Positions 1 to 30,300 of a DNA stretch of 34,138 bases are shown piece by piece. Every line of letters begins with the position of its first letter. The stretch's first letter is position 1. Below the pieces are notes generated by a model. That model did not search any database, was not told where the DNA came from, and saw only the letters and a list, made by a program, of their open reading frames with translations. The stretch comes from Minisyncoccota bacterium. GTDB taxonomy: Bacteria > Patescibacteriota > JACMRA01. A program made the position numbers and the translations under genes. The DNA is taken from contig JACMRA010000006.1 in assembly GCA_014376695.1 (NCBI GenBank), forward strand, positions 1 to 34,138, in the 5' to 3' direction.

Positions 1-3000
1 AAGGCGGTATTGTTATATGGTTGAGCTGCTGGGATAAGGTTTTTGGTTCTTAGACTAGTTTTCATCGCTCCTGCAGTTACATCGAAGGCTCCCTGGAGAT
101 TGAGTTTGAGGTTTAGAGTTGCTGGGGTGAAGGTGTTTGAATGGATCCCGTCTGGACCTGCGTCCTTACTTTGACCTGGGACAACAGTGATGCTGGTTGG
201 GTTAGAACCGCCAGTGACTGTATAACCAGAAGGTGATGCGACTGTAACTGTATAAGTTCCAGCAGGGACATTTTGGGTGTAAGTACCATCAGTATTGATA
301 ACCGCTGCAAAGGTAGTAGCAGTTGTTGTATTGGTTATAGTAACAGTGGTTCCAGATGGAAGAGGCGAGGAAGTAGACGTGTTTGGTTCGGTAGCGTCTT
401 GAGTTCCGTTATTATTAAGATCCAAAAAGACTTTACCGGTGATAGTTGCTGGTAGATAGAGACCGTCGAAGCCTGCATCTACTGGAGCGGTAGGGCTTGC
501 TGTAACTGTAGTTGGGTTAGAAAGGGGACTTCCAGTAATGGTATAACCAGAAGGGGCAACTACTGTAACGGTGTAAGTTCCAGCTGGGACATTTTGGGTA
601 TAAGTACCATCGGTAGTGATAACTACTGCAAAGGTATTAGCTGGGACAGTTGTACTTGTGACAGTGACTGTAGTTCCGGCTGGGATGGGATTTGCTAGAG
701 TAGTGTTTGGTTCACTAGCTTCCTGAACACCTGACTTATTGGTATCCAAAAAGATCTTACCGGTAATCTTGGACGGAGTGTAAAGACCGTCTTGACCTGC
801 GTATGTAATTGCTCCGAGGTTAACAGTGACAGTGGTTGGGTTAGATAGGGGACTTCCAGTAATGATAGAACCAGAAGGGGGTGTGACTGTGACTGTGTAA
901 GTTCCAGCTGGGACAATCTTATTGTAAATACCGTCAGTATTAATAACAGCGGTATAGGTATTAGCTGGCGTTGTAGTGTCAGTTATAGTAACTGTAGTTC
1001 CAGCTGGGATAGGGTTTGTAGTGGTTGTATTTGGTTCGCTAGCGTCTTGAGTTCCATTATTATTGGTATCCAAAAAGATTTTACCTGTAATCATAGGAGG
1101 GGTATAAAGACCGTCTTGACCAGCGTCCTTGATTTCCCATGGGACAAGAGTAACAGTAGTTGGATTAGACAAGGGGTTTCCAGTGACGGTGTAAGCAGAA
1201 GGAGCTGCTACTGTAACTGTGTAAGTACCACCGGGGACGTCTTGAGTGTAACTACCGTCGGTATTAATAACAGCTACAAAGGTATTAGCTGGTGTTGTAG
1301 TATCAGTTATAGTAACTTTAGTTCCTGCTGGGATAGGGTTTGCGGCGGTAGTATTTGGTTCAGTGCCATCTTGGAGACCGTTGTTATTAGTGTCCAAAAA
1401 GATCTTACCAGTAATTGTAGCTGGGCGATATAGACCGTCCATACCGGCATCTACTGGCGCAGTAGGACTTGCTGTAACTGTAGTTGGGTTAGATAGAGGA
1501 TTTCCAGTAATGATATAACCAGCGGGCACTGCTACTGTAACTGTGTAAGTACCGGCAGCGATATAATGGGTGTAACCACCGTCAAAACCAATAGCTACTG
1601 TAGAGGTATTAGCTTGCGAGGCGGTATCAGTTATAGTAACCGTAGTTCCGGCTGGGATAGGATTTCCAACTGAGGTATTTGGTTCGTTAGCGTCTTGAGT
1701 TCCATTATTGTTGTTATCCAAAAAGATTTTACCTGTAATCTTAGACGGGGTGTATAGACCATCTTGCCCGGCATTTGTAGTTGCACCTAGAACAGCAGTG
1801 ACACTAGTTGGGTTAGATAAGGGGCTGCCAGTAACGGTATAACCAGCTGGAGCTACGACGGCAACTGCATAAGTTCCAGCGGGGACATCTTGGCTGTAAG
1901 TACCGTCGGTATTGATAACAGAGGTAAAGGTAATAGCGGGCGAGGTAGTATCAGTTATGGTAACTGTGGTACCCATTGGAATAGGGTTTATGGTTGTAGC
2001 ATTTGGCTCGCTAGCGTCTTGCAATCCGTTATTATTATTATCCAAAAAGATCTTACCAATAATTTTTGGAGGTGTATAAAGACCATCTTGACCTGCATTT
2101 GTACTTGTACCTAGAATAGCAGTAGCCATAGTTGGGTTAGAATTACCAGTGATGGTGTAGGCAGAAGGGGCTGCTACTGTAACTATGTAGGTTCCAGCTG
2201 GGACAATTTGGCTGTAAGTACCGTCAGTGTTAATAACTGCTGTGTAGGTATTAGCTGGGACTGTAGTGCTTGTTATAGTAACTGTAGTTCCGGCTGGGAT
2301 AGGGTTTCCAACTGTAGTATTTGGTTCAGTGATGTCTTGAGTTCCTGACTTGTTAAGATCCAAATAGACTTTACCAGTAATAGTCGTTGGCAGATAGAGA
2401 CCATCGGCACCTGCATTTACTGGGGCGTTAGGACTTGCTGTAACTGTAGTTGGATTAGATAAAGGACTTCCAGTGATGGAGTAGCCATAGGATACTACTG
2501 TTACTGTGTAAGTTCCAGCTGGGACATTTTGGGAATAAGTACCGTCAACATTGATAACTGCTGAATAGGTATTAGCTGGCGTTGTAGTGTCAGTTATAGT
2601 AACTGAAGTTCCCTCAGGGATAGGAGTTGAAATTGTACCATCTGGCTCACTAGCATCTTGTAATCCGTTATTGTTAGTGTCCAAAAAGACTTTACCTGTA
2701 ATCTTAGATGGAATGTAAAGACCATCTTGACCTGCATCCTTAATTTGACCTGGGACAACAGTGACATTAGTTGGGTTAGATAGAGGACTTCCAGTAACTG
2801 TATAACCAGAAGGTGCGACAACTGTGACTGAATAAGTTCCAGCTGGGACATTTTGGGTATAAGTACCGTCAGTCTTAATAACTGCCCCAAAGGTATTGGC
2901 TGGAGTTGTAGTGTCAGTTATAGTAACTGTAGTTCCAGTTGGGATAGGATTTGTAGTGGTTGTATTTGGTTCGCTAGACTCTTGAATTCCTGAATTATTA

Positions 3001-5891
3001 TTATCCAAAAAGACCTTACCTGTAATAGTTGCTGGAAGATAAAGACCGTCAAAGCCTGCATCTACTGGAGCGGCTGGACTTGCTGTAACACTAGTTGGGT
3101 TAGAGCCTCCAGTAATGGTATAACCAGCGGGCGCTACTACTGTAACTGTGTAGGTTCCAGCTATAACATCTTGAGTATAAGCACCGTCGGTATTAATAAC
3201 TGCCGAAAAGGTATTAGCTGGTGTGGTTGTGCTTTTGACAGTAACTGTAGTTCCAGTTGGGATAGGATTTGAAAGGGTGGTATTTGGTTCGCTGGCGTCT
3301 TGTAGTCCGTTGTTATTAGAATCCAAAAAGATTTTACCAATAATCTTGGACGGCATGTAAAGACCATCTTGACCTGCATCTTTGGTTTCTCCTGCGCCCA
3401 CGGTAACTGTAGTTGGGTTAGATAAAGGGTTTCCAGTGACGGAGTAGCCAGAGGATACAACTGTTACTGTGTAAGTTCCAGCAGGAACATTTTGGGTATA
3501 AGTACCGTCAGAATTGATAATTGCCGAATAGGTATTAGCTGGTATAGTTGTACTTGTGATAGTAACTGTAGTTCCAGTTGGGATAGGATTTGTGATGCTG
3601 GTATTTGGTTCGCTAGCCTCTTGAATTCCTGAATTATTAGTATCTAAAAAGATTTTACCATTAATCGTTGTTGGCAAAGCGTAAAAACCAAAGTCTAGTG
3701 TCATATTACCCAAATCATCGGTTCCGCCTTGTGGATTAAGACCGGAAACTAAATCTGTTTCGCCTAGAACTTCTGGCTTAGCAAGGGTGACGATTGAACT
3801 TCTGATACCTGTTGAGGTGTTAAGTTCTCCAATTCCATTGTCATTTCCATCAATATCATTATTAGCCAAAGCTTCGTCAATTGGGCTAGAAGCGTAGCCA
3901 ACAAGCATGCCACTAGAGACAAAGTTACTTGACGCAATCTCGGCGATATAGTTTCCACCAGCAAGATTATCAAACCTGTAATATCCACCGCCGGCTGTCA
4001 ATGTAGTAGTTGGTTGTCCTGAGCTATTCAAAACTGCTGCTCCAGTGCTATTTAGTAAATTAACTTTAACGCCGTCGATGCCGGTTTCTGCGTTATTGAT
4101 AAGTCCATCTTTGTTAGTATCAACCCATACTCGGTTACCAAGACTGAATAAATCGGTTGCAAAATATTTGACCCCAACTTTCAGAGATTCGACTGGTGAG
4201 AATTTGAGGCCGGTAGCAACGCTTGTCGAAACATAGCCAAAGGAACTCCAGGCAACTGTACCATTAAAATCATTGCCAGCAATGCCTGTAAGTCGATAGT
4301 TAATATTAAAAGAGCTAGAATTTGTGTAACCAGTGAGGTTGAATCGCACACCAGTGGTTGTATCAATCAGAGTTGGAGGTGTTGCTGACCAATAAGCTGG
4401 ATTACAATCAGCTGGGAATGGTGTTGTGCCGTCTGGAGATAATGTGTCTCGACATGGGTTCATAACAGTTGTATAAAGAACAGTTCCCATAACGCCGCTT
4501 GGCAAACTAATTGGGGCCTTAAGAGTAGGTTTCCAGGCTGAGTAACGAGGCTCCGAACTAACGACACCTCTATCTCCAACAGATGGAAATATGTCATAAA
4601 TGTCCAAATCTTTTATAGCTCCTGCGGGATTAGTGATAGCTAATTGGTAGTCAATATCACCACCGCTTGATACCTTTGCAAGATCTGGGTATTGTTTGAA
4701 TGTTGTATCAAGATCACCTTTGACGGATAAGACTGCGCTTAGCTCTGAGGATCCTTGAGGGGGGACGATATTATTATTGAAGCGTTGCAAACACATTATG
4801 TCTGAAGTAGAACCATTTTGATTAAGGTCGTATATATCAGCGTTTCTTTTGTCGCCAACACAGTAATTAACACCTTTTGGTTCTGTATTTGCACTTGTCG
4901 CAAAGCCTTCGTTGACTAAGGTTGTTTTTGGCAGAGTACTGTCAAACTTGACTTTGAAATTGACCAATATATCAGTGATGTAGGGTACAACTGGATTAGT
5001 CGCAGACCCGTCAAGTGTCAAAGCACTAGTTCCACTCCAATCGAACTTTAGAAGTGTCTTACCGGTATTGTTAAAATTAAGTGTTTTGGTTACAATGGGG
5101 GCGGGTAAATTAGGGCGACCAGCGTCTACACAATACCAAGAAACACAAGTTTTGGTTGTTGAAGGTGTAGTGTAGCTTGTCTCATCCAAGATTTGACCTA
5201 CTGGGAGCAAATCATACATAACAGGGTTAATGAGTGGCAGTGCATCTGTTGGATTGTTGTTTATTCTCATCTCAACATTTCCACTTTGACCAGGTGCGGA
5301 TGGATCTAGGGCATTAACTCTTTTGTTAAAATAAAATTTTAATTCTTTTACAGGTGAACTATTACCAGCGATTAAAGTAAAACTTTGGCTAGGGTATGTC
5401 TCGGCGGGGTTAGTCCCACTAACTGTACTAACTTGAATTGGTAGGGACTCCCCTTGGGTCACACCAGCTGCCTGAATCTGCATATTGATGCTTATTTGAC
5501 CGGTGGTATTCAAAGGTGTAGAATTATTGAAAGTAAGGGTGTATTTATTATTGATGGAATCGTAGGTTTTGCTTATTCCTACTGGCAGAGTTTCAGTGAT
5601 TGGCTCTATTTTTGGGATATCTAGAACAATCTTATTACCTTGACAGTTACCAACGGTTGATTGACAAGTATAATTCACATAATATGTAAATGGAGTACTA
5701 GTATTAACTGTTAGAGGGCTGCTGACTGGTGAAGAATTATAAATAACGGATGTTGTTAAATTGAATTCAGCCGCAAGTACCGTAATACTTACGAGAGTAG
5801 ATACCAAACAAATACCCAGTATTAGACTGGAAGTGATTTGCACTAACTGTTTTGATAGGTTGACACCCCTATTGAATAGATTGATGAACAT
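1..5891 (-). CDS. Giant secreted SdrD_B-repeat surface protein (5' part; 3' end outside window)
   Basis: The minus frame starting at ATG 5891 has no stop to the window edge (about 1,963 codons). It starts MFINLFNRGVNLSKQL, then a hydrophobic stretch ending VLAAEF, a typical Sec signal peptide. Residues about 45-580 are a Thr/Asn/Ser-rich extracellular region with several Cys pairs (for example CVSWYC). A canonical SdrD_B domain follows (GNRVWVDTNKDGL, residues about 585-730), then eleven SdrD_B-like domains of about 107 residues, each with GK[IV][FY]LDxNxxGxQ, an NTDGTYTQ-like strand, PAGTYTVTV and a DAGxDGLY linker. The Asp/Asn-rich loops fit calcium binding known for SdrD-type B repeats. 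After the last repeat comes LNLKLNLQGAFDVTAG and MKTSLRTKNLIPAAQPY, resembling a module found before C-terminal sorting regions of other giant surface proteins. Likely a cell-surface stalk or adhesin, perhaps for host contact (inference). The anchor is not visible. Confidence 0.93.
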   Translation of the reverse strand, partial: MFINLFNRGVNLSKQLVQITSSLILGICLVSTLVSITVLAAEFNLTTSVIYNSSPVSSPLTVNTSTPFTYYVNYTCQSTVGNCQGNKIVLDIPKIEPITETLPVGISKTYDSINNKYTLTFNNSTPLNTTGQISINMQIQAAGVTQGESLPIQVSTVSGTNPAETYPSQSFTLIAGNSSPVKELKFYFNKRVNALDPSAPGQSGNVEMRINNNPTDALPLINPVMYDLLPVGQILDETSYTTPSTTKTCVSWYCVDAGRPNLPAPIVTKTLNFNNTGKTLLKFDWSGTSALTLDGSATNPVVPYITDILVNFKVKFDSTLPKTTLVNEGFATSANTEPKGVNYCVGDKRNADIYDLNQNGSTSDIMCLQRFNNNIVPPQGSSELSAVLSVKGDLDTTFKQYPDLAKVSSGGDIDYQLAITNPAGAIKDLDIYDIFPSVGDRGVVSSEPRYSAWKPTLKAPISLPSGVMGTVLYTTVMNPCRDTLSPDGTTPFPADCNPAYWSATPPTLIDTTTGVRFNLTGYTNSSSFNINYRLTGIAGNDFNGTVAWSSFGYVSTSVATGLKFSPVESLKVGVKYFATDLFSLGNRVWVDTNKDGLINNAETGIDGVKVNLLNSTGAAVLNSSGQPTTTLTAGGGYYRFDNLAGGNYIAEIASSNFVSSGMLVGYASSPIDEALANNDIDGNDNGIGELNTSTGIRSSIVTLAKPEVLGETDLVSGLNPQGGTDDLGNMTLDFGFYALPTTINGKIFLDTNNSGIQEASEPNTSITNPIPTGTTVTITSTTIPANTYSAIINSDGTYTQNVPAGTYTVTVVSSGYSVTGNPLSNPTTVTVGAGETKDAGQDGLYMPSKIIGKIFLDSNNNGLQDASEPNTTLSNPIPTGTTVTVKSTTTPANTFSAVINTDGAYTQDVIAGTYTVTVVAPAGYTITGGSNPTSVTASPAAPVDAGFDGLYLPATITGKVFLDNNNSGIQESSEPNTTTTNPIPTGTTVTITDTTTPANTFGAVIKTDGTYTQNVPAGTYSVTVVAPSGYTVTGSPLSNPTNVTVVPGQIKDAGQDGLYIPSKITGKVFLDTNNNGLQDASEPDGTISTPIPEGTSVTITDTTTPANTYSAVINVDGTYSQNVPAGTYTVTVVSYGYSITGSPLSNPTTVTASPNAPVNAGADGLYLPTTITGKVYLDLNKSGTQDITEPNTTVGNPIPAGTTVTITSTTVPANTYTAVINTDGTYSQIVPAGTYIVTVAAPSAYTITGNSNPTMATAILGTSTNAGQDGLYTPPKIIGKIFLDNNNNGLQDASEPNATTINPIPMGTTVTITDTTSPAITFTSVINTDGTYSQDVPAGTYAVAVVAPAGYTVTGSPLSNPTSVTAVLGATTNAGQDGLYTPSKITGKIFLDNNNNGTQDANEPNTSVGNPIPAGTTVTITDTASQANTSTVAIGFDGGYTHYIAAGTYTVTVAVPAGYIITGNPLSNPTTVTASPTAPVDAGMDGLYRPATITGKIFLDTNNNGLQDGTEPNTTAANPIPAGTKVTITDTTTPANTFVAVINTDGSYTQDVPGGTYTVTVAAPSAYTVTGNPLSNPTTVTLVPWEIKDAGQDGLYTPPMITGKIFLDTNNNGTQDASEPNTTTTNPIPAGTTVTITDTTTPANTYTAVINTDGIYNKIVPAGTYTVTVTPPSGSIITGSPLSNPTTVTVNLGAITYAGQDGLYTPSKITGKIFLDTNKSGVQEASEPNTTLANPIPAGTTVTVTSTTVPANTFAVVITTDGTYTQNVPAGTYTVTVVAPSGYTITGSPLSNPTTVTASPTAPVDAGFDGLYLPATITGKVFLDLNNNGTQDATEPNTSTSSPLPSGTTVTITNTTTATTFAAVINTDGTYTQNVPAGTYTVTVASPSGYTVTGGSNPTSITVVPGQSKDAGPDGIHSNTFTPATLNLKLNLQGAFDVTAGAMKTSLRTKNLIPAAQPYNNTA
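130..3676 (-). repeat. Eleven tandem SdrD_B-domain repeats, about 318-324 bp each
   Basis: On the plus strand the complement of FLD (tccaaaaag or a close variant) recurs near 417, 740, 1064, 1388, 1712, 2036, 2356, 2677, 3000, 3317 and 3640, a spacing of 317-324 bp. All copies stay in one minus frame. Linkers fall into classes: A, with ASPxAPV before AGxDGLY and P[AT]TI after it; B, ending PPKI or PPMI; C, ending PSKI. From the coding-strand start the order is roughly first, C, A, C, A, B, C, A, B, C, A, so the last seven follow a period of three (about 972 bp). Open frames in other phases here are by-products of the repeat. Confidence 0.9.
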
Positions 5892-13525: not shown

Positions 13526-15100
13526 ATGGTTCAAAAGATCTATTCCACCACTCTAAGCGGTCTACGCAGTCAACTAATCGAGATTGAAATTGATATCAGC
13601 CCCAGTATCCCAACGATGCTAATAGTAGGCCTACCTGACAAGGCTGTCCAAGAGAGTCGTGAGCGGGTCAAGACCGCAATTGCCCAATCGGGCTTTGAGT
13701 TCCCGATGGGCAAGATTACGGTCAATTTAGCCCCGGCTAATTTAATCAAGGCTGGAACTCAATTCGACTTGCCAATTGCCGTTGGTATCCTCAAACAAGC
13801 CGGTTACATCAAAGCTAAAACCACTACAAAATCGGGTACTTTGCTAGAAAATTTTTGGGATAAGAGCATCTTTGCGGGGGAATTATCGCTCGATGGGAGT
13901 CTTAGGAGCGTCAACGGGGTGCTAAGTATTGGGTTATACGCAGTCCAAAATAACTTCGAATATCTATTCGTCCCAAAATCTAATCTTAACGAAGCTCGAA
14001 TGATACAAGGAATAAAGGTTTTTGCGATTGAGAGATTGTCTGAGCTAGTTGGGTTCTTTAATGGAACTCTGGAATTGGTGCCTGTCGAGCCAATTGACTT
14101 TAAGACGCTACTCAAGTCGCCCGAAAATACAATTCATCCCAATGATATGGCCTATATTAAGGGTCAAACAGTAGCCAAACGTGCGCTTGAAATTGCAGCC
14201 AGCGGTGGTCATAACGCGATGTTTGTCGGACAACCGGGCAGCGGCAAAACCCTACTTGCCAAAAGTTTTGGGACAATTTTGCCAATGATGAGCGAGCAAG
14301 AAATCTTGGAAGTTACTCAAGTTTATTCCATTGCGGGACTGCTTGACGCTAATCAAATAATGACCAAGCGGCCATTTCGTTCCCCGCACCACACGGCCAG
14401 CCATATTAGTATGATAGGCGGCGGGCTAAAACTTCGACCAGGGGAGGTTAGTTTATCTCATCGAGGGGTGCTTTTTTTGGATGAATTTCCTGAGTTTGGG
14501 CGGGATACGCTGGAGGCTCTTCGCCAACCGTTAGAGGACGGGGTTGTTCAGATTAGCCGCGCGGTTGGTAGTGTGCAATATCCGGCTAAGTTTTGTTTTT
14601 TGGCGGCCGCTAATCCCACGCCTAGCGGTTTTGAATCGGGAGATGCTTTGGCTACAACTAAGTCAGCTAGTCCCAAAGCTATTGCTAGGTATCAAGCCAA
14701 GTTCTCGGGGCCGATTATGGATAGGATTGATATTTTTGTGCAGGTCAACCGCCCGTCCAAAGACGAATTACAGTCCAAAACATTGAGCGAAAGCTCCTAC
14801 CAAATAGCCACCCGAGTTCAACAAGCTCGAGATATTCAGATAGCTAGATTTGGCGAGCGATCGGCTGTTACCTGCAATTCCGAAATGAATCTTCAACAAA
14901 TTCAAGAATTTTGCCAATTAGACAAGCCAACCGAAGAGTTAATGTCCAAGGCCATAGACAAGTTCAAACTCTCAGCTCGAAGTTATATGCGTATCCTCAA
15001 ACTTTCTCGGACAATTGCTGATTTGGACGGTAATAATACGGGTGGCAATATTCTTTTTGCTCATCTCAGCGAGGCCCTGCAATTTAGGAATAAGATGTAG
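13526..15100 (+). CDS. comM: ComM-type Mg-chelatase-like AAA+ helicase
   Basis: 524 residues from ATG 13526. Residues 1-150 are the Lon-S5-like domain typical of ComM/YifB (MVQKIYSTTLSGLRSQLIEI, VGLPDKAVQESRERVKTAI, NLAPANLIKAGTQFDLPIA). The AAA+ domain has Walker A GQPGSGKT (235-242), FRSPHHTASH, and Walker B GVLFLDEFPEF (Asp319, Glu320); a Mg_chelatase_C domain ends the protein. The open frame extends 22 codons upstream to a TTG (13460), but MVQK matches the usual family start. Characterised ComM promotes branch migration when DNA is integrated during natural transformation, so the gene implies uptake or recombination of foreign DNA. Its last 15 codons recur twice downstream (see repeats at 15056, 16937, 18016). 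Confidence 0.93.
   Translation: MVQKIYSTTLSGLRSQLIEIEIDISPSIPTMLIVGLPDKAVQESRERVKTAIAQSGFEFPMGKITVNLAPANLIKAGTQFDLPIAVGILKQAGYIKAKTTTKSGTLLENFWDKSIFAGELSLDGSLRSVNGVLSIGLYAVQNNFEYLFVPKSNLNEARMIQGIKVFAIERLSELVGFFNGTLELVPVEPIDFKTLLKSPENTIHPNDMAYIKGQTVAKRALEIAASGGHNAMFVGQPGSGKTLLAKSFGTILPMMSEQEILEVTQVYSIAGLLDANQIMTKRPFRSPHHTASHISMIGGGLKLRPGEVSLSHRGVLFLDEFPEFGRDTLEALRQPLEDGVVQISRAVGSVQYPAKFCFLAAANPTPSGFESGDALATTKSASPKAIARYQAKFSGPIMDRIDIFVQVNRPSKDELQSKTLSESSYQIATRVQQARDIQIARFGERSAVTCNSEMNLQQIQEFCQLDKPTEELMSKAIDKFKLSARSYMRILKLSRTIADLDGNNTGGNILFAHLSEALQFRNKM
15056..15100 (+). repeat. att-like repeat copy 1 (3' end of comM)
   Basis: The last 15 codons of comM including the stop, encoding FAHLSEALQFRNKM. 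Matches copy 2 at 42 of 45 positions and copy 3 at 28 of the final 29. Identity stops at the stop codon. Confidence 0.9.
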
Positions 15101-15199
15101 GGGTTAATCAGGTTTCTGGATTAAATTTCAAAATCGCTACGGCTCATGCCTAAACTGTTTAAGCCAAATCTTACAGCCGAATCATAATAATTTTTTGTG

Positions 15200-16827
15200 T
15201 TACCTGATACTGATTACGCATTCTTGTAAATATTTCTGAGCTTTATGTTTATCATTTTTTGCAATTTCCAATACAACTAAATTCGTCAACACACAGGCAA
15301 CATTTGGTAAATACACCTGTGGGTCAACTTCTGCTAATTTTCTATATATCCCCAAGGCTTGAGTAAATGAGTCGGATGATGTGTATAGTTGGCCACTTCT
15401 CCTTTGTAAAATTCCTAGGTTATTTAGCACGCCTGCAACGAATTGCAAATGTAAATCAGGATCAATTTTAGCTAAATCTTGTCTGATTTGTAAAACTTTG
15501 GTATAGCACTCTATGGCTTTAATTACATGTGACTTTTCTAAATATACGTTACCTAGATTATTTAATATATCAGCAATAAACGGTAAGTTAAGTTGAGAGT
15601 TTGATTTGGCAAGCTGCTCTCTAATTGACAAGGCTTCAGTAAATGATTCCTCAGCCATATCTAATTGACGGCGATCCATTTGTAAAACACCGAGACAATT
15701 TAGTATGTCAGCATCATATTGCAAGCTAGCTCCGGGGTTTGATTTGGCAAGCTCCTGCCTAATTAGTAGTGCTTCAGTATATAAATGCTGAGCTTCGTCT
15801 AATTGGTTGTTATCATTTTGTAAAACCCCCAAGGAACTAGTATATCAGCAACGCGCGGTAAATACACTTGCGGGTTAAATTTTGCAAGCAGCTTATAATG
15901 ACCTAAGGCGAGTAAAAATTTTTCAATTGCAGGTATAAATTGATTATTTTCGCCAAGGAAAAGTGCGTACTTAAATAATATTTCGACATTATTTGTTTGT
16001 TGGTAGGCTTGCTCATATTCGTCAATTGTATCGGTTATTCTATTCGGGTTACTATAATCCAAACCAAAGGTGCTGATAGAAATTTGGATACTCTCAATAT
16101 CTCTTTTGGCTGAGGCTTTTAGGTTTTCGAGTTCTTTTTGCAACTTTCCCATCCGTTGTATTTTTTGGTTGTAACCCTTGAATAAGCCTGCTTTTTCTTG
16201 GAGGAAATATGCTTTAACCTCTTCAAAGCTACCATGGCTAAATAGTTTGTTTAAATGTTTTGCGTATGGTGAGTTAAGATCTAATTTTTGGATTTCCCAG
16301 TATAATTGATTTAAAATGGTTATGAACTTTTCGATTTCTTCATTCAGTTTTATTAATTCAGTCTTTAGGTGATACTCGAATTGCGGGTTAGCGCTTGCGT
16401 TGGTAATTTTATTTTCTAATTCTTCTCGTTTTTGGTGTAATTTTTTGTAGTCAACCGAATCTAAGATAATGTTATTAAAATTTATTATTCCGTAATTTGC
16501 AATTTCAGTGCGTTTTGAATTGTCATGATAGGTATTATTGCTTCGATTGTAGTTGTTTGTGGAATTATTAGTAATTTACGACATTAGATTTTTGTCGTTT
16601 TGGATAGTTTTAACATCCTCAGCCAGCTCGTCGTTTTCTAATATTAGGCGACTAATTTGATCTTGTAGTTCTTTTGGGGTGAGTAATTTTGGATCTAGTT
16701 TGTCTTGCGAAAATACTTGTTTTATTTTGCCAATTACACTTGTAACAATAGCCCCGCCGACGGTTGTTGCAGCCCCGTTTAGAAGATTATCGGTGATTAG
16801 CTTGATTATACTAGGGTCGATGTACAT
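15200..16827 (-). pseudogene. TPR-repeat protein with hydrophobic N-terminus, interrupted by a stop and a frameshift
   Basis: Three pieces form one gene. From ATG 16827 it reads MYIDPSIIKLITDNLLNGA then a Gly/Ala/Val-rich helix and QDKLDPKLLTPKELQDQI, up to TAA at 16576-16578. The same frame continues without a stop or any ATG/GTG/TTG (ITNNSTNNYNRSNN..., then a coiled-coil-rich stretch KREELENKITN, MGKLQKELENLKASAKRDI) to 15799. Near 15838-15845 the frame shifts: the first frame reads VADILVPWGF where the pattern demands ADILxxLGVLQND, which the next frame supplies. The C-terminal part has at least five TPR-like units of about 46-50 residues (ADILNCLGVLQ, ADILNNLGNVYLE, AGVLNNLGILQ). Intact it would be about 540 residues. 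Hydrophobic helix plus TPRs recalls sensor-effector proteins of defence systems, an inference only. Confidence 0.7.
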
Positions 16828-16846
16828 ACAGAAATAGACTTCTCGT

Positions 16847-16875
16847 ACCATAAATCTCAAACCAATATTCGTCAA
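16847..16875 (-). promoter_or_regulatory. Candidate promoter of the module A gene
   Basis: Minus strand: TTGACG (16875-16870), 17 bp, TATGGT (16852-16847), placing the start about 13 nt before ATG 16827. This argues for 16827 over in-frame codons upstream (16851, 16902). Confidence 0.4.
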
Positions 16876-16936
16876 AGCATAATTAGTACCCAACACAACC
16901 AACTCATCAGTGAATTTGGGTATTTTCCTGGTGTGT

Positions 16937-16981
16937 TTCGCTCATCTTAGCGAGGCCTTGCAATTTAGGAATAAGATGTAG
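16937..16981 (+). repeat. att-like repeat copy 2
   Basis: 45 bp, identical to the comM 3' end except for three bases, all synonymous in the comM frame (TTT/TTC, CTC/CTT, CTG/TTG), so it still encodes FAHLSEALQFRNKM and a stop. Similarity ends abruptly on both sides. Confidence 0.9.
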
Positions 16982-17017
16982 AGGGAGAGCCAGAAAGCCT
17001 GTATTAATAATAACTAC

Positions 17018-17046
17018 TTGTCAAAAATATGTTTTCTACCTATTAT
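17018..17046 (+). promoter_or_regulatory. Candidate promoter of the module B gene
   Basis: TTGTCA (17018-17023), 17 bp, TATTAT (17041-17046); predicted start about 25 nt before ATG 17078. It overlaps the upstream in-frame start at 17018, which is therefore not used. Confidence 0.5.
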
Positions 17047-17077
17047 TCGGTTAACAATTATTAATTTGGAATTTAAC

Positions 17078-17953
17078 ATGGAGACAGTATCACAAGGAAC
17101 TAATCGACAATCACGCCAGGATCTTGAACAAAAAGTAGCTGAAGCGAAATGTGAATTAGATAGAGAGGAAGTTGCAAACTGTTTGAAAAGTATTTTCGAG
17201 GTCGGTTATTCTCCCATTTCAGATGTACATATTTTGGCTAGACATTTACAAATAAATCTAGACTTACTAAAATCGCACAAATTCCTGCGAGTTTTTTTAC
17301 AACGCAAACCTGAAAGTTTGTACCATTTTGGAGCTGAAAGACCTGATATATCGGAAGGTACGATTATAGTTATTGATACAAATGGGAAAGCGATTGTATT
17401 ATACGATAGTGTTGATGGAAATAACTTTGTATTGACTACCGAAATAATAGATTATAACTTAACGGCCTAACCAGTATTACAATCAGCAAACCACCCTGAA
17501 GGTAATGAAACCAGAATTTCGTTCGACCCAGCTGAGTCATTTCGATTTGTTAGTTCAGGTGAGAAATCTCGAGTTTCAATAATCAGAGACTTTTTAACTG
17601 TAACAATTGAAATTAAAGGCGAAACAATACGCCAGCCTTTTTATAGGTCATCTGGCACTGATTCGAACTTACCGGGGGTTTGGTTCCCTTTTGACGGTGT
17701 TACTCAGTGTGATGAAACAACGCAAATGGGTAGAGGGTTTGAGATAAGTCGTTTTATAAATGATCAAGTACCAGAATTTATAGAAAGCGGTAGTACCAGA
17801 ACTGCAAATAGAATTACAAGGATGGGCGGCACACCATTAATCCAGGAATATGGTCCAATGTACCTAAAAATTTCTGAAATGCTAAATAGAGCAAGAATTG
17901 TACCCGAAAAAATAGTCACTTATGATGAAATAAATGAGGCTCTTAATTTGTAA
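17078..17953 (+). pseudogene. Unknown protein gene interrupted by one in-frame TAA
   Basis: From ATG 17078 the frame reads METVSQGTNRQSRQDLEQKV to TAA at 17468-17470, then continues in the same frame without any further stop (PVLQSANHPEGNETRISFDP ... FEISRFINDQVPEF ... EKIVTYDEINEALNL) to TAA 17953. Read through, it is a 291-residue protein. The second half starts in mid-fold and has no plausible start until ATG 17726, so one gene with one nonsense change is the simplest reading. No motif is recognised; the N-terminal part is helical (ELDREEVANCLKSIF), the middle beta-rich (GTIIVIDTNGKAIVLYD). It could encode a small effector or immunity protein, but nothing in the sequence shows this. Confidence 0.6.
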
Positions 17954-18015
17954 TTTTAATAATTCGCACTAAGGTGCGGGGTCATTCGAGTAAAGCCACA
18001 TTTAGAATAGCTTTT

Positions 18016-18060
18016 TTGACCCACTTTAACCAGGCCTTGCAATTTAGGAATAAGATGTAG
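18016..18060 (+). repeat. att-like repeat copy 3
   Basis: The last 29 bp (18032-18060) are identical to copy 2 and differ from comM at one base. The preceding 16 bp are diverged but still read like a ComM end (LTHFNQALQFRNKM against FAHLSEALQFRNKM). Core: gcaatttaggaataagatg. Confidence 0.85.
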
Positions 18061-18085
18061 GATAACCTTGTGAGTTAAGCCTATT

Positions 18086-26675: not shown

Positions 26676-27890
26676 ATGACAGCACTTTTGGAACAATTTT
26701 ACAATCAATCAGGCTTTCCTTATATGAATATCGGAAGTCAAAAATATATTTTGCCCGAGGTTATGAGTTACACCAATCTTGGCCTAGCTATCGATAGGTC
26801 CGAATTTGATAAGGCTGCTTGCGGTATTGCCCAGGCTTTGGATAGTGGGATAAATAAAATCATAAATCTCCCGAAGTCCAAAATCGCCGAATACGGCTAT
26901 CTACTCGAATCTATCAATTTAATCTCGCAAGTATCTACTAATAACCTATCGCTGATGCGGCTAAGTTTTGTGATCAATCGCGAGGATAATTTGCCGGTTC
27001 TTATCGAAGTCAATAGCCAAACCCCAAGTCTCAATTACGAGTTAGAATCAGGGACCGTGCTAATGCAAAAACTTGCCCCCGAATCAGCTCAAATATCTAT
27101 TGAAGATTTGGCAAACTGCCTATCTAGTCAACTTCATAATCTGGCAAATCAGCTTGGAAAACCACTTGAGGAGTGCAATATTGGACTTCTAACTTGTGAT
27201 AGTCCAGAAGATATTTACCAAATGAATTACTACAAAAATTTAATCATCGAACAAAATCTTGGCAAAAGCTGCGAAGTGGTTACTAATCTGACTTTTGGTT
27301 TTGATAGTGAGGGTTATTGCTGTGGTAATTTGACAAATACTAGATATGATATACTGTTTAATTGGTATCCGCTTGAATGGGGCGTCAAAGAGAGTTTTGG
27401 TAGCGGGGAGAGCTTTGCCCGATTGCTTGATAATGGCATAAATTCCAATCGAGTGGCGATTTTTAATGGGATTGAGTCCTTTGTTGTGCAGAATAAGAAT
27501 TATTTAGTCTTTATGCAGGCCGAGGATCTCTGGCCCAAAAATGTTCAAAATTACGTTAGCGACAGTTATTATACGGAGTCAGAATTGCTAACCACTCAAG
27601 GCTCCAACTCCAATTGGATTGCCAAACCTATCTGGGGACGGCACGGCACGGGGGTTTTTGGGTCGGTGGATTTTCGCAAGTTTTGGGGAGATCTTAGTGA
27701 TGAGTATTATAATAATCAGGACTGTATCTATCAGCCATTATGGGCAAGCAAACTCTTTGGTAATCAAAAAGCCACTTTGGAGGTATTTGTCTACAAGGTA
27801 TCCAACCAATGGGAAGCCGGCGGTATGGGCCTTAGGTTAAGCCCCGATATAATTACCGACGCCTCCGCGAGTTGCCAGATGATTGGGTGA
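26676..27890 (+). CDS. Glutathionylspermidine-synthase-like (YgiC/YjfC-type) ATP-grasp ligase
   Basis: 404 residues, near family length. Features of the GSP_synth ATP-grasp family: VLIEVNSQTPS (about 108-118), TRYDILFNWYPLEWGVKE, WIAKPIWGRHGTGVFGSV (ATP-binding lysine and Gly-rich loop, about 310-327), CIYQPLW, and a terminal LEVFVYKVSNQWEAGGMGL. The family joins amines or peptides to carboxylates with ATP; for YgiC-type members the substrate is unknown. Last gene of a four-gene operon. The end is odd: after IITD, where relatives run on with a short conserved tail, it reads ASASCQMIG and stops, and this stretch is the 46-bp repeat that recurs at 29622. The C-terminus may therefore have been replaced. 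Confidence 0.85.
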   Translation: MTALLEQFYNQSGFPYMNIGSQKYILPEVMSYTNLGLAIDRSEFDKAACGIAQALDSGINKIINLPKSKIAEYGYLLESINLISQVSTNNLSLMRLSFVINREDNLPVLIEVNSQTPSLNYELESGTVLMQKLAPESAQISIEDLANCLSSQLHNLANQLGKPLEECNIGLLTCDSPEDIYQMNYYKNLIIEQNLGKSCEVVTNLTFGFDSEGYCCGNLTNTRYDILFNWYPLEWGVKESFGSGESFARLLDNGINSNRVAIFNGIESFVVQNKNYLVFMQAEDLWPKNVQNYVSDSYYTESELLTTQGSNSNWIAKPIWGRHGTGVFGSVDFRKFWGDLSDEYYNNQDCIYQPLWASKLFGNQKATLEVFVYKVSNQWEAGGMGLRLSPDIITDASASCQMIG

Positions 27891-27895
27891 GGGGT
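27850..27895 (+). repeat. 46-bp direct repeat, left copy (end of the GSP-synthase-like gene)
   Basis: 40 of 46 bases match 29622-29667, including a perfect 19-bp core ctccgcgagttgccagatg. The copy spans the last 12 codons, the stop and a few bases beyond. Confidence 0.85.
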
Positions 27896-27897
27896 AT

Positions 27898-29187
27898 TTA
27901 TATAAATTGGACTTTAGTCTTGATGGTTTTGGTGTTCTCAATCTTAATCTGTGACTCCAGATAACCTTCGACCGTGACCAAATTATAATCGTAGTCTAGT
28001 TTGATTAGGCTGAGATCTGGAGTTTCTATAATTATGGTTGTCGGTGTGTTACACAAAAAACAAATTTGGAATGGGTAGTTATAAGTTAGTTGGTATTCGG
28101 TAGGGCTATTTGTGCCAAGATTATGGATTACAATATTATTAACGGTACTCTGATCCCCAAAGATTGTGACTTGCGATTTGTCTGATTTTTTGAAAGCCAG
28201 GTTCGGTTTTGCAGGGTTTAGAGACGCTAAGCCAAAGCTGTACCCAGAAGAAAAGCCTTTCATTTGGCTAATTTTGAATGTTTTCTTGGTTGGTTCTGTA
28301 TTATTATAAAAATTTACGAGACTTGGAGATCCGACAGTTGTTAATAGTAAATAGATAACTCCAAAGATTATTAGTGGTTTGATTGTATTTTTGGCTTTTG
28401 AAGTCAATAGTTTTAGCCCGTAGCTCAATCGAGCCAGATTAATAACGCAGTAGGCAATTATCAGAGATGAGGTCAACAATCCAAACAAAACTATATCCCT
28501 GCCTAGGCTATTTGGTCTGATTAATAGATTCGAGGAGATATAATTTGCTGGCCAATTGAAATATCGTATCAGAGTAATGCCTGCAGTGAGATAAGTATAA
28601 TAGATAAATTGCCCGAAAGCCAGTATCATCACAATTACCCCAAGGCATTTATAAAAGGCTGGAATTAAATATGTATCAACCCAACTCGAATTATCTTGGC
28701 TAAATTCTAAATAGTCGTTTAATTCATATTTTTCTGGTAGTAAAAATCCCAAAAAGACATAAACCAAAATTACAACCACCGGATTAAAAAATAGTCCGAC
28801 CGCAAATAATATTGCACATAAGGTCAAAACCCAGGGTTGTTTCTGGAATTTATCTGCTAATCCATTAAATACTCCTGGGGTTAAACCAGGCTTTACTCTA
28901 TACAAGCCAGCCACTTTGTAATTTTGATTTTTGATAAATGTCGATGTTTTCCAGTCTTCTAATTGGATTGGATTATCCTTGGATGACCCCTTAGGAAAAA
29001 AAGTTTGAACTAAGTCAATTTCGTAATTAGACAAAATCTCGTCGGATTCGGGGCTGTTTTTGTATTGTAAGCTTTGATTAGCTAGGTAATTTTTGACATT
29101 GGTTAATATTTTGTTTGAAATCCAGATAGATTGTTTGCTAATTGGTAGGGTGAATTTGCGATTAGATGATAAAGTAAAAATAGACAT
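27898..29187 (-). CDS. PspC-domain membrane protein with C-terminal adhesin-like beta domain
   Basis: 429 residues. After a soluble N-terminus comes a PspC domain (94-153: VAGLYRVKPGLTPGVFNGLA, then two hydrophobic stretches and FLGFLLPEKY). Four more transmembrane segments follow (about 170-195, 235-260, 275-295 and one weaker). The C-terminal 130 residues are beta-rich (SQVTIFGDQSTVNNIVIHN, TTIIIETPDLSLIKLDYDYN) like the GIN/DUF2807-type beta-helical domains that often accompany PspC. PspC proteins take part in envelope-stress responses. The partner PadR gene is 8 bp upstream in the same operon, as in PadR-controlled membrane-stress pairs. No Shine-Dalgarno is visible. The stop is 8 bp from the convergent ligase gene. 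Confidence 0.8.
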   Translation of the reverse strand: MSIFTLSSNRKFTLPISKQSIWISNKILTNVKNYLANQSLQYKNSPESDEILSNYEIDLVQTFFPKGSSKDNPIQLEDWKTSTFIKNQNYKVAGLYRVKPGLTPGVFNGLADKFQKQPWVLTLCAILFAVGLFFNPVVVILVYVFLGFLLPEKYELNDYLEFSQDNSSWVDTYLIPAFYKCLGVIVMILAFGQFIYYTYLTAGITLIRYFNWPANYISSNLLIRPNSLGRDIVLFGLLTSSLIIAYCVINLARLSYGLKLLTSKAKNTIKPLIIFGVIYLLLTTVGSPSLVNFYNNTEPTKKTFKISQMKGFSSGYSFGLASLNPAKPNLAFKKSDKSQVTIFGDQSTVNNIVIHNLGTNSPTEYQLTYNYPFQICFLCNTPTTIIIETPDLSLIKLDYDYNLVTVEGYLESQIKIENTKTIKTKVQFI

Positions 29188-29195
29188 ATCGTGAA

Positions 29196-29534
29196 TTATT
29201 CGGTGATAGATTGTAATTGATTGAAGGTTAGGTTAAGCTTATTAACAAAAGATATACTTTGATTTAGTATTTGGCGGCCAAACGGAGTCATAAAATAGTA
29301 TTTACGAGGCGGCCCAGTAGGAGATTCAACCCATTTTGAGTCGAGTTTTTTTTCGGCTTTGAGTCTGGCCAGTAGAGGATATAGAGTTCCTTCTACTAAG
29401 ATTAGATCCGCTGATTTGGCTTTTTCGATAATTTGAAAGGGATAAAGCTCTTGCTCATTTATTATGAGTAAAGTGAAAATCTCCAACATACCTCGTCTCA
29501 GCTGGGATTCAATGGTGTTATTTTGACTAATCAT
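29196..29534 (-). CDS. PadR-family transcriptional regulator
   Basis: 112 residues. Typical PadR winged helix: SQLRRGMLEIFTLLII (about 10-25), YPFQIIEKAKSADLILVEG (recognition region), TLYPLLARLKAEKKLDSKWV (the signature), and GPPRKYYFMTPFGRQIL (wing). A short C-terminal helix suits the small subfamily that dimerises through it. PadR proteins repress their own operon until a ligand binds. An inverted repeat TGTAAC-N9-GTTACA just upstream of the start is a likely operator, so this gene and the PspC gene are probably autoregulated. Confidence 0.9.
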   Translation of the reverse strand: MISQNNTIESQLRRGMLEIFTLLIINEQELYPFQIIEKAKSADLILVEGTLYPLLARLKAEKKLDSKWVESPTGPPRKYYFMTPFGRQILNQSISFVNKLNLTFNQLQSITE

Positions 29535-29545
29535 AGGTATTATGT

Positions 29546-29566
29546 TGTAACATATAGTTGGTTACA
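29546..29566. promoter_or_regulatory. Candidate PadR operator
   Basis: TGTAAC (29546-29551), 9 bp, GTTACA (29561-29566), extending to 8-bp arms with one mismatch, 12 bp upstream of the PadR start. Spacing fits PadR dimers. TTGACA-type -35 sequences lie further up, near 29595-29605 on the minus strand. Confidence 0.5.
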
Positions 29567-29621
29567 CCTAGTACTATGTAATGCATAATAATATTTGTCA
29601 AGTCAATTGCACCAAAAAGTT

Positions 29622-29667
29622 TAATTACATACGTCTCCGCGAGTTGCCAGATGGTTGGGTGAGAAGT
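29622..29667 (+). repeat. 46-bp direct repeat, right copy
   Basis: Matches 27850-27895 at 40 of 46 positions. It belongs to no gene: in the ligase frame it reads ITYVSASCQMVG and a stop, without upstream coding sequence. It ends 18 bp before the SGNH gene's stop. Confidence 0.85.
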
Positions 29668-29685: not shown

Positions 29686-30300
29686 TTAAATCTCAAGACT
29701 TTCTAATTTGAGGTCTATTATTTGAGCTAAATATTCGTAGCCTAATTTATTCGGATGCAGTCCATCATCGCCAATCATTCTGGGTTCAAACCCTGGGAAT
29801 GCCAGGTAATCTACTTGTCGCTGAATACTAATTTTTTGGAGTAATTGGTTATAAATTTTTACATCCTCAGATTTGCGAATGTATCCATATTTATCAGGTT
29901 CAACACCCAAAATATCAGCTATTGGAGTAACTTCGAGCAAAAGCACTGTACCCAATTGGCTATAAGTATCGATTGCTTTGTTAATATTTGTTACAAACTG
30001 CTCCGAGTCCACATAATATTCTTGGGTCGTTGTATTTTGGGCTAAGTCATTGAGACCGAAGGAAATTATAAACAGGCTTGGTTTGTTTTTTTTGACTCGT
30101 GCGATTCCTTCTTGTAGGCGTTTGACCAGGTCGTCAGTGGTATTACCAGGGATACCAAGATTGTACACCCTATAAGCCGATTCTTTTTTTAAAATCTCGG
30201 GCCAACCGATTATGCCCGCCTCAAGCGATCCGCCTACTCCATAAGTAACGCTATCGCCCAAGCAAAAAATGTTTCGTTGTATTCTATTTTGATTGTTCAT
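29686..30300 (-). CDS. SGNH/GDSL-family hydrolase
   Basis: 204 residues, usual single-domain length. Block I has GDSVTYG with the nucleophile Ser17; block II is NLGIPGNTTDDL (Gly52); block III FGLNDLA (Asn84); block V DDGLHPNKLGYEYLA with Asp179 and His182 completing the triad. These enzymes are esterases or lipases, acting on acyl esters, often of lipids or cell-wall sugars. No signal peptide is visible, so it is probably cytoplasmic, like TesA-related thioesterases. No clear ribosome binding site. It has no evident operon partner: the neighbour downstream is the 46-bp repeat and upstream is a divergent gap of 229 bp. Confidence 0.9.
   Translation of the reverse strand: MNNQNRIQRNIFCLGDSVTYGVGGSLEAGIIGWPEILKKESAYRVYNLGIPGNTTDDLVKRLQEGIARVKKNKPSLFIISFGLNDLAQNTTTQEYYVDSEQFVTNINKAIDTYSQLGTVLLLEVTPIADILGVEPDKYGYIRKSEDVKIYNQLLQKISIQRQVDYLAFPGFEPRMIGDDGLHPNKLGYEYLAQIIDLKLESLEI

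Follow-up and report, generated by a model that had tools for sequence, protein, structure and literature searches.

A PadR–PspC gene pair between two copies of a ligase gene end in a Minisyncoccota genome: a candidate small islet without an integrase of its own

Elements mobilized by tyrosine recombinases carry direct repeats of 8–60 bp in their att sites and can integrate into housekeeping protein genes at the 3' end, leaving the gene undisrupted; both CIMEs and accretion have been described among them (PMC5704250). Cargo bounded by gene-end repeats is a feature of tycheposons, elements named in PMC10872708. Here we report on a stretch of 34,138 nucleotides from a Minisyncoccota bacterium (contig JACMRA010000006.1 of assembly GCA_014376695.1; hereafter, the window), in which a gene pair encoding a PadR-type regulator and a PspC-domain protein lies between two copies of the 3' end of a ligase gene. 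The features at this locus and at a sister locus at comM are compiled in Table 1.

Table 1. Positions of the features at the ligase and comM loci, in window coordinates
Feature	Position	Strand	Remarks
comM/yifB 3' end, comM repeat copy 1	15055–15103	+	reads FAHLSEALQFRNKM, then stop
Insert A, 1881 bp	15104–16984		GC 0.350; on the − strand, a small ORF and a TPR gene that occupies two frames
comM repeat copy 2	16936–16984		end of insert A
Insert B, 1079 bp	16985–18063		GC 0.359; single ORF, 150 aa
comM repeat copy 3	18015–18063		end of insert B; reads LTHFNQALQFRNKM, then stop
GSP-synthase-like ATP-grasp ligase (target gene), 404 aa	26676–27890	+	Pfam GSP_synth 2.7e-16; 3' end is repeat copy 1
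Ligase repeat copy 1 (attL-like)	27850–27895	+	final 13 ligase codons with the stop, plus 5 bp
Insert unit (cargo plus one repeat copy), 1772 bp	27892–29663		GC 0.353 vs. 0.398 in the sampled own genome
PspC-domain membrane protein (cargo), 429 aa	27898–29187	−	Pfam PspC 6.3e-5, slightly under the family cut-off
PadR-type transcriptional regulator (cargo), 112 aa	29196–29534	−	Pfam PadR 7.2e-15
Inverted repeat (21 nt), possible PadR operator	29538–29593	−	consensus match only; overlaps the promoter
Likely promoter, TTGACA-17-CATAGT	29601–29573	−	consensus match only; inside the insert
Ligase repeat copy 2 (attR-like)	29622–29667	+	reads LITYVSASCQMVG, then stop, in the ligase frame; no attached gene
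SGNH hydrolase	29686–30300	−	Pfam Lipase_GDSL_2 4e-25

The repeat and the insert at the ligase gene

When counted on the sequence, the two copies of the ligase gene end were identical at 40 of 46 positions (six mismatches) and shared a perfect 19-bp core, CTCCGCGAGTTGCCAGATG, as a preliminary description of this DNA had claimed; the repeat finder listed the pair as 42 nt at 90% (labelled D7). The ungapped score of the pair was 32, far above chance, since 100 dinucleotide shuffles gave no pair within 6 kb that scored above 19.5. These shuffles were made from positions 3901–34138, the first 3.9 kb with its tandem-repeat gene having been set aside (a large gene region at 148–3759 with about ten tandem repeats of ~321 bp). 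In the ligase frame, copy 1 reads IITDASASCQMIG and encloses the ligase stop codon (27888–27890), and neither the frame nor the exact stop codon is altered in copy 2.

With up to three mismatches allowed, the 19-mer was found at two sites in the window, namely both copies, where none were expected. The genome-wide search for the core that had been proposed in the preliminary description also returned these two copies and none elsewhere in the phylum: a 30-bp pattern (three mismatches) matched only them in the own genome (955,781 bp in 16 contigs, 78% complete), and a 28-bp version retrieved only the same two among 380 genomes of the phylum including the own one, with none in the other 379. For an 18-mer, nine matches were obtained in 257 billion bases of genome contigs, all in unrelated bacteria and at about the number expected by chance. 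No further copy was present in viral contigs or phage records, and a phage or viral origin of the repeats was set aside; such searches for further att-site copies are bounded by collections that are thin for this lineage, with six genomes in its class. A dispersed repeat or RNA element, the alternative that the preliminary description had itself raised, is countered by the presence of just two copies, by the lack of an Rfam match and by folding that did not exceed that of shuffles on either strand (DNA folding z-scores of 0.4 to 1.3), values that also led us to reject an attC-type hairpin. Symmetrical arms beyond those in shuffles were likewise absent from the ligase repeat, as was the 28-bp near-palindromic 11-6-11 arrangement of Xer-dif/pdif sites. 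In one relative, G002 (contig C3, locus L064), a perfect 28-bp near-palindrome readable as 11-6-11, AAACCCCTAGTTTAAGAACTAAGAGTTT, occurs three times between four co-oriented genes (796–823, 3310–3337 and 4572–4599), with no further copy in the stretches examined; it might represent a Xer/dif-like cassette array and differs from the gene-end repeats.

The preliminary description had also proposed that the ligase ends abruptly, as if its tail had been swapped, and had called for a comparison with homologues. The duplicated gene end was upheld; the swapped tail, as stated, was not supported by this comparison. The sole homologue found (contig C18 of G004, which belongs to the same family and has similar neighbours upstream; 43% identity) aligned without gaps through the final residue of each protein, and the match to the Pfam domain reached residue 398 of 404, so the ligase ends where expected; no relatives were found in the PDB. 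Judging from this alignment, the tail appears to be at its normal position and neither truncated nor exchanged for another domain, although its last residues differ; these may stem from incoming DNA, placed where the native end would be.

With regard to the insert itself, exactly two genes lie between the copies, as had been noted, and both are on the − strand, with PadR 8 bp upstream of PspC; an integrase or transfer gene was not found there. The PspC stop codon is 7 bp from that of the ligase on the opposite strand, and no relative of this protein was detected in five genomes of the same family or in viral contigs. A promoter-like site and an inverted repeat (together spanning 29538–29601) occupy the DNA between PadR and repeat copy 2. 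In a translated search of the insert, the only convincing ligase remnant was the end comprising the last 14 codons. Furthermore, computed removal of the 1772 bp left the ligase and SGNH genes convergent with a 23-bp gap; convergent pairs in the sampled genome are separated by a median of 30 bp. The SGNH gene is presumed to be the original downstream neighbour of the ligase; a relative with the two genes side by side was not found, given that among the genomes compared only G004 has the ligase, followed by a different gene.

The comM locus and the survey for similar cases

A second locus with this layout and a repeat of unrelated sequence had also been proposed; this, too, was supported, and a shared kind of event seems likely. 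At comM the repeat is present in three copies, not two, all of which end in frame with ALQFRNKM and a stop codon, while the ComM proteins of relatives end in QYRGKWG or QYRGRWG. Within the shared end, three codons distinguish copy 1 from copy 2, all by synonymous changes, and divergence is greatest in the far copy, as tandem accretion predicts. Symmetry relative to shuffles was weak in copy 1 (17/300) and absent in copies 2 and 3. Removal of both inserts from the locus (15055–18063) left comM and a CsoR-like gene convergent and 25 bp apart, and the only convincing comM remnants in the inserts were the last 16 and the last 12 codons. The neighbours of comM in G001, G003, G004 and G005 were all different, so that none of these genomes offers an empty site for comparison. 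The TPR gene of insert A (15200–16152) is split into overlapping frames (15200–15832 and 15799–16152), possibly by a frameshift.

The comM and ligase repeats are unrelated in sequence and each is confined to its own locus; a search for motifs shared by the insert ends of the two loci yielded two 10-mers only, which were taken as chance. The GC content of the three inserts (0.35–0.36 vs. 0.398) contrasts mildly with that of the genome, values as low being found in 4–11% of sampled windows.

In a survey of ~359 kb of the own genome, including the window, non-paralogous gene-end repeats around cargo were found only at the ligase and comM loci, and no clear case emerged from ~909 kb of three relatives. 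In a weaker case, at locus L048 of the own genome, G000 (G000:C8, 11842–11916 and 14677–14751), an intact PIN gene is preceded at 2.8 kb by a remnant (91%) of a PIN-toxin gene end. A 53-bp repeat (89%) flanking an LRR gene at L043 (G000:C3, 78–130 and 1604–1656) was rejected as a third case: each copy closely precedes a start codon, and it is therefore probably better read as a duplicated promoter region. A tandem duplication of ~2.8 kb with ~81% identity was observed at L040 (G000:C2, 8394–13239).

Origin of the inserts

Within the own genome (78% complete), PF00589 matched one protein, a Xer-like tyrosine recombinase encoded on G000:C12 between transketolase-like and alaS-like genes. As four of five relatives likewise have a single such protein, this lone recombinase is, also given its gene neighbours, probably the chromosomal Xer. 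PF00239 matched a broken serine-recombinase stub with an internal stop (G000:C8:3016-3229), the sole match among the six searched genomes of this order. A candidate recombinase for the islets was not found in the own genome at this completeness.

We regard it as somewhat probable that the PadR–PspC pair represents an integrated, CIME-like islet of small size that is flanked by attL and attR and whose recombinase acted in trans or has been lost. Under this model, the final ~45 bp of the ligase gene would serve as the attachment site; a circular element with a near copy of the ligase end would recombine with that end, so that the incoming copy completes the ligase frame and the displaced end remains on the far side. 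The cargo would bring its own promoter and probably a PadR operator too, and at comM two rounds would have occurred in tandem, with the newest insert beside comM. The circular intermediate, the site-specific recombinase, the direction and order of events and the regulation by PadR are what we infer from the observed arrangement: repeats above chance and in two copies only, the kept frame and stop codon, the lack of further gene remnants in the inserts, neighbours that become compactly convergent once these are removed (gaps of 23 and 25 bp) and low GC. Against an islet stand the lack of a recombinase, the missing symmetrical arms in the ligase repeat, the mild GC contrast and a cargo of 1.0–1.8 kb, very small for such elements; the two unrelated attachment sequences, which need two specificities, count against it as well.

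The main rival is homology-facilitated illegitimate recombination, in which ligase–PspC–PadR DNA of a relative recombines inside the ligase gene and joins illegitimately in its last ~45 bp, leaving the host end behind. This needs no integrase, which agrees with the failure to find a recombinase, with repeats that differ between the loci and with copies diverged like orthologues, comM copies 1 and 2 differing only synonymously. The process is described for competent bacteria, at least in the accessible text of PMC3240628, and competence genes are reportedly widespread among Patescibacteria (PMC12455944), a group that probably includes this lineage, to judge by its genome size and the make-up of the phylum. 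However, the joint could fall anywhere in a gene of 1.2–1.6 kb, yet three times it left ~40–50 bp at the end, so a bias would be needed, such as the loss of longer, unstable duplications; we consider this explanation rather unlikely.

Less probable still is the decay of tandem duplications, whereby a second ligase gene (and a second and third comM) downstream was deleted down to its last 45 bp. Decayed paralogues do occur elsewhere in the genome, for example the PIN-toxin remnant and pairs of Nudix and lipoprotein genes, but the inserts hold no other convincing remnant of ligase or comM and no duplicated neighbour, and an identical endpoint would be required three times. The repeat–cargo–repeat–cargo–repeat order at comM would suit an array of integron-like cassettes with attC-type sites, or else a dispersed repeat or an RNA element, but this explanation is very improbable, being largely refuted by the folding, Rfam and copy-number results, by the Xer-like nature of the sole tyrosine recombinase and by the confinement of each repeat to one locus.

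An integrated islet of the proposed type is ordinary in kind and unusual in its small size and its lack of a recombinase. A bolder version, which we think improbable, is that a recombination system of this lineage acts in trans to move promoter–gene packages of 1–2 kb into different protein genes at their 3' ends, the coding end serving as attachment site, integron-like without attC or a resident integrase and possibly driven by the host Xer. If the islet reading holds, a streamlined genome can house accessory gene pairs in very small islets at the ends of protein genes, which island finders keyed to integrases or tRNA genes would miss. Should the recombinase be found, it would explain the gain of small regulated gene packages where almost no mobile-element enzyme was detected.

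Comparison with described elements

A close likeness is to a CIME or decayed integrative and mobilizable element (PMC5704250), which shares with the islets the 8–60 bp direct repeats, of which one is the target gene's intact end, the absence of an integration gene inside and the tandem accretion at one site. The islets differ in their cargo of 1.0–1.8 kb, in lacking any remnant of an integrase or mobilization gene, and in having no known integrase-bearing partner. They can be said to work like CIMEs rather than to be proven members of that class, because the searches yielded no element with a matching integrase. As far as the accessible text of the sources extends, SGI1-type islands at the 3' end of trmE (PMC8409611) and dusA islands at the 5' end (PMC4482086) likewise sit at the end of a conserved protein gene; both are large and use target genes other than the ligase and comM, and dusA islands, unlike the islets, carry their own integrase.

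Integron cassettes and CALIN resemble the comM locus in their tandem small cargo units split by a repeated site, whereas the repeats described here have no attC-type hairpin (as folded for the ligase repeats), overlap the host coding end and come with no integron integrase that we could find. Finally, tycheposons, which include integrase-less satellite members, resemble the islets both in placing cargo between gene-end repeats and, in some cases, in lacking a recombinase of their own; they use the ends of tRNA genes, whereas the islets use those of protein genes.
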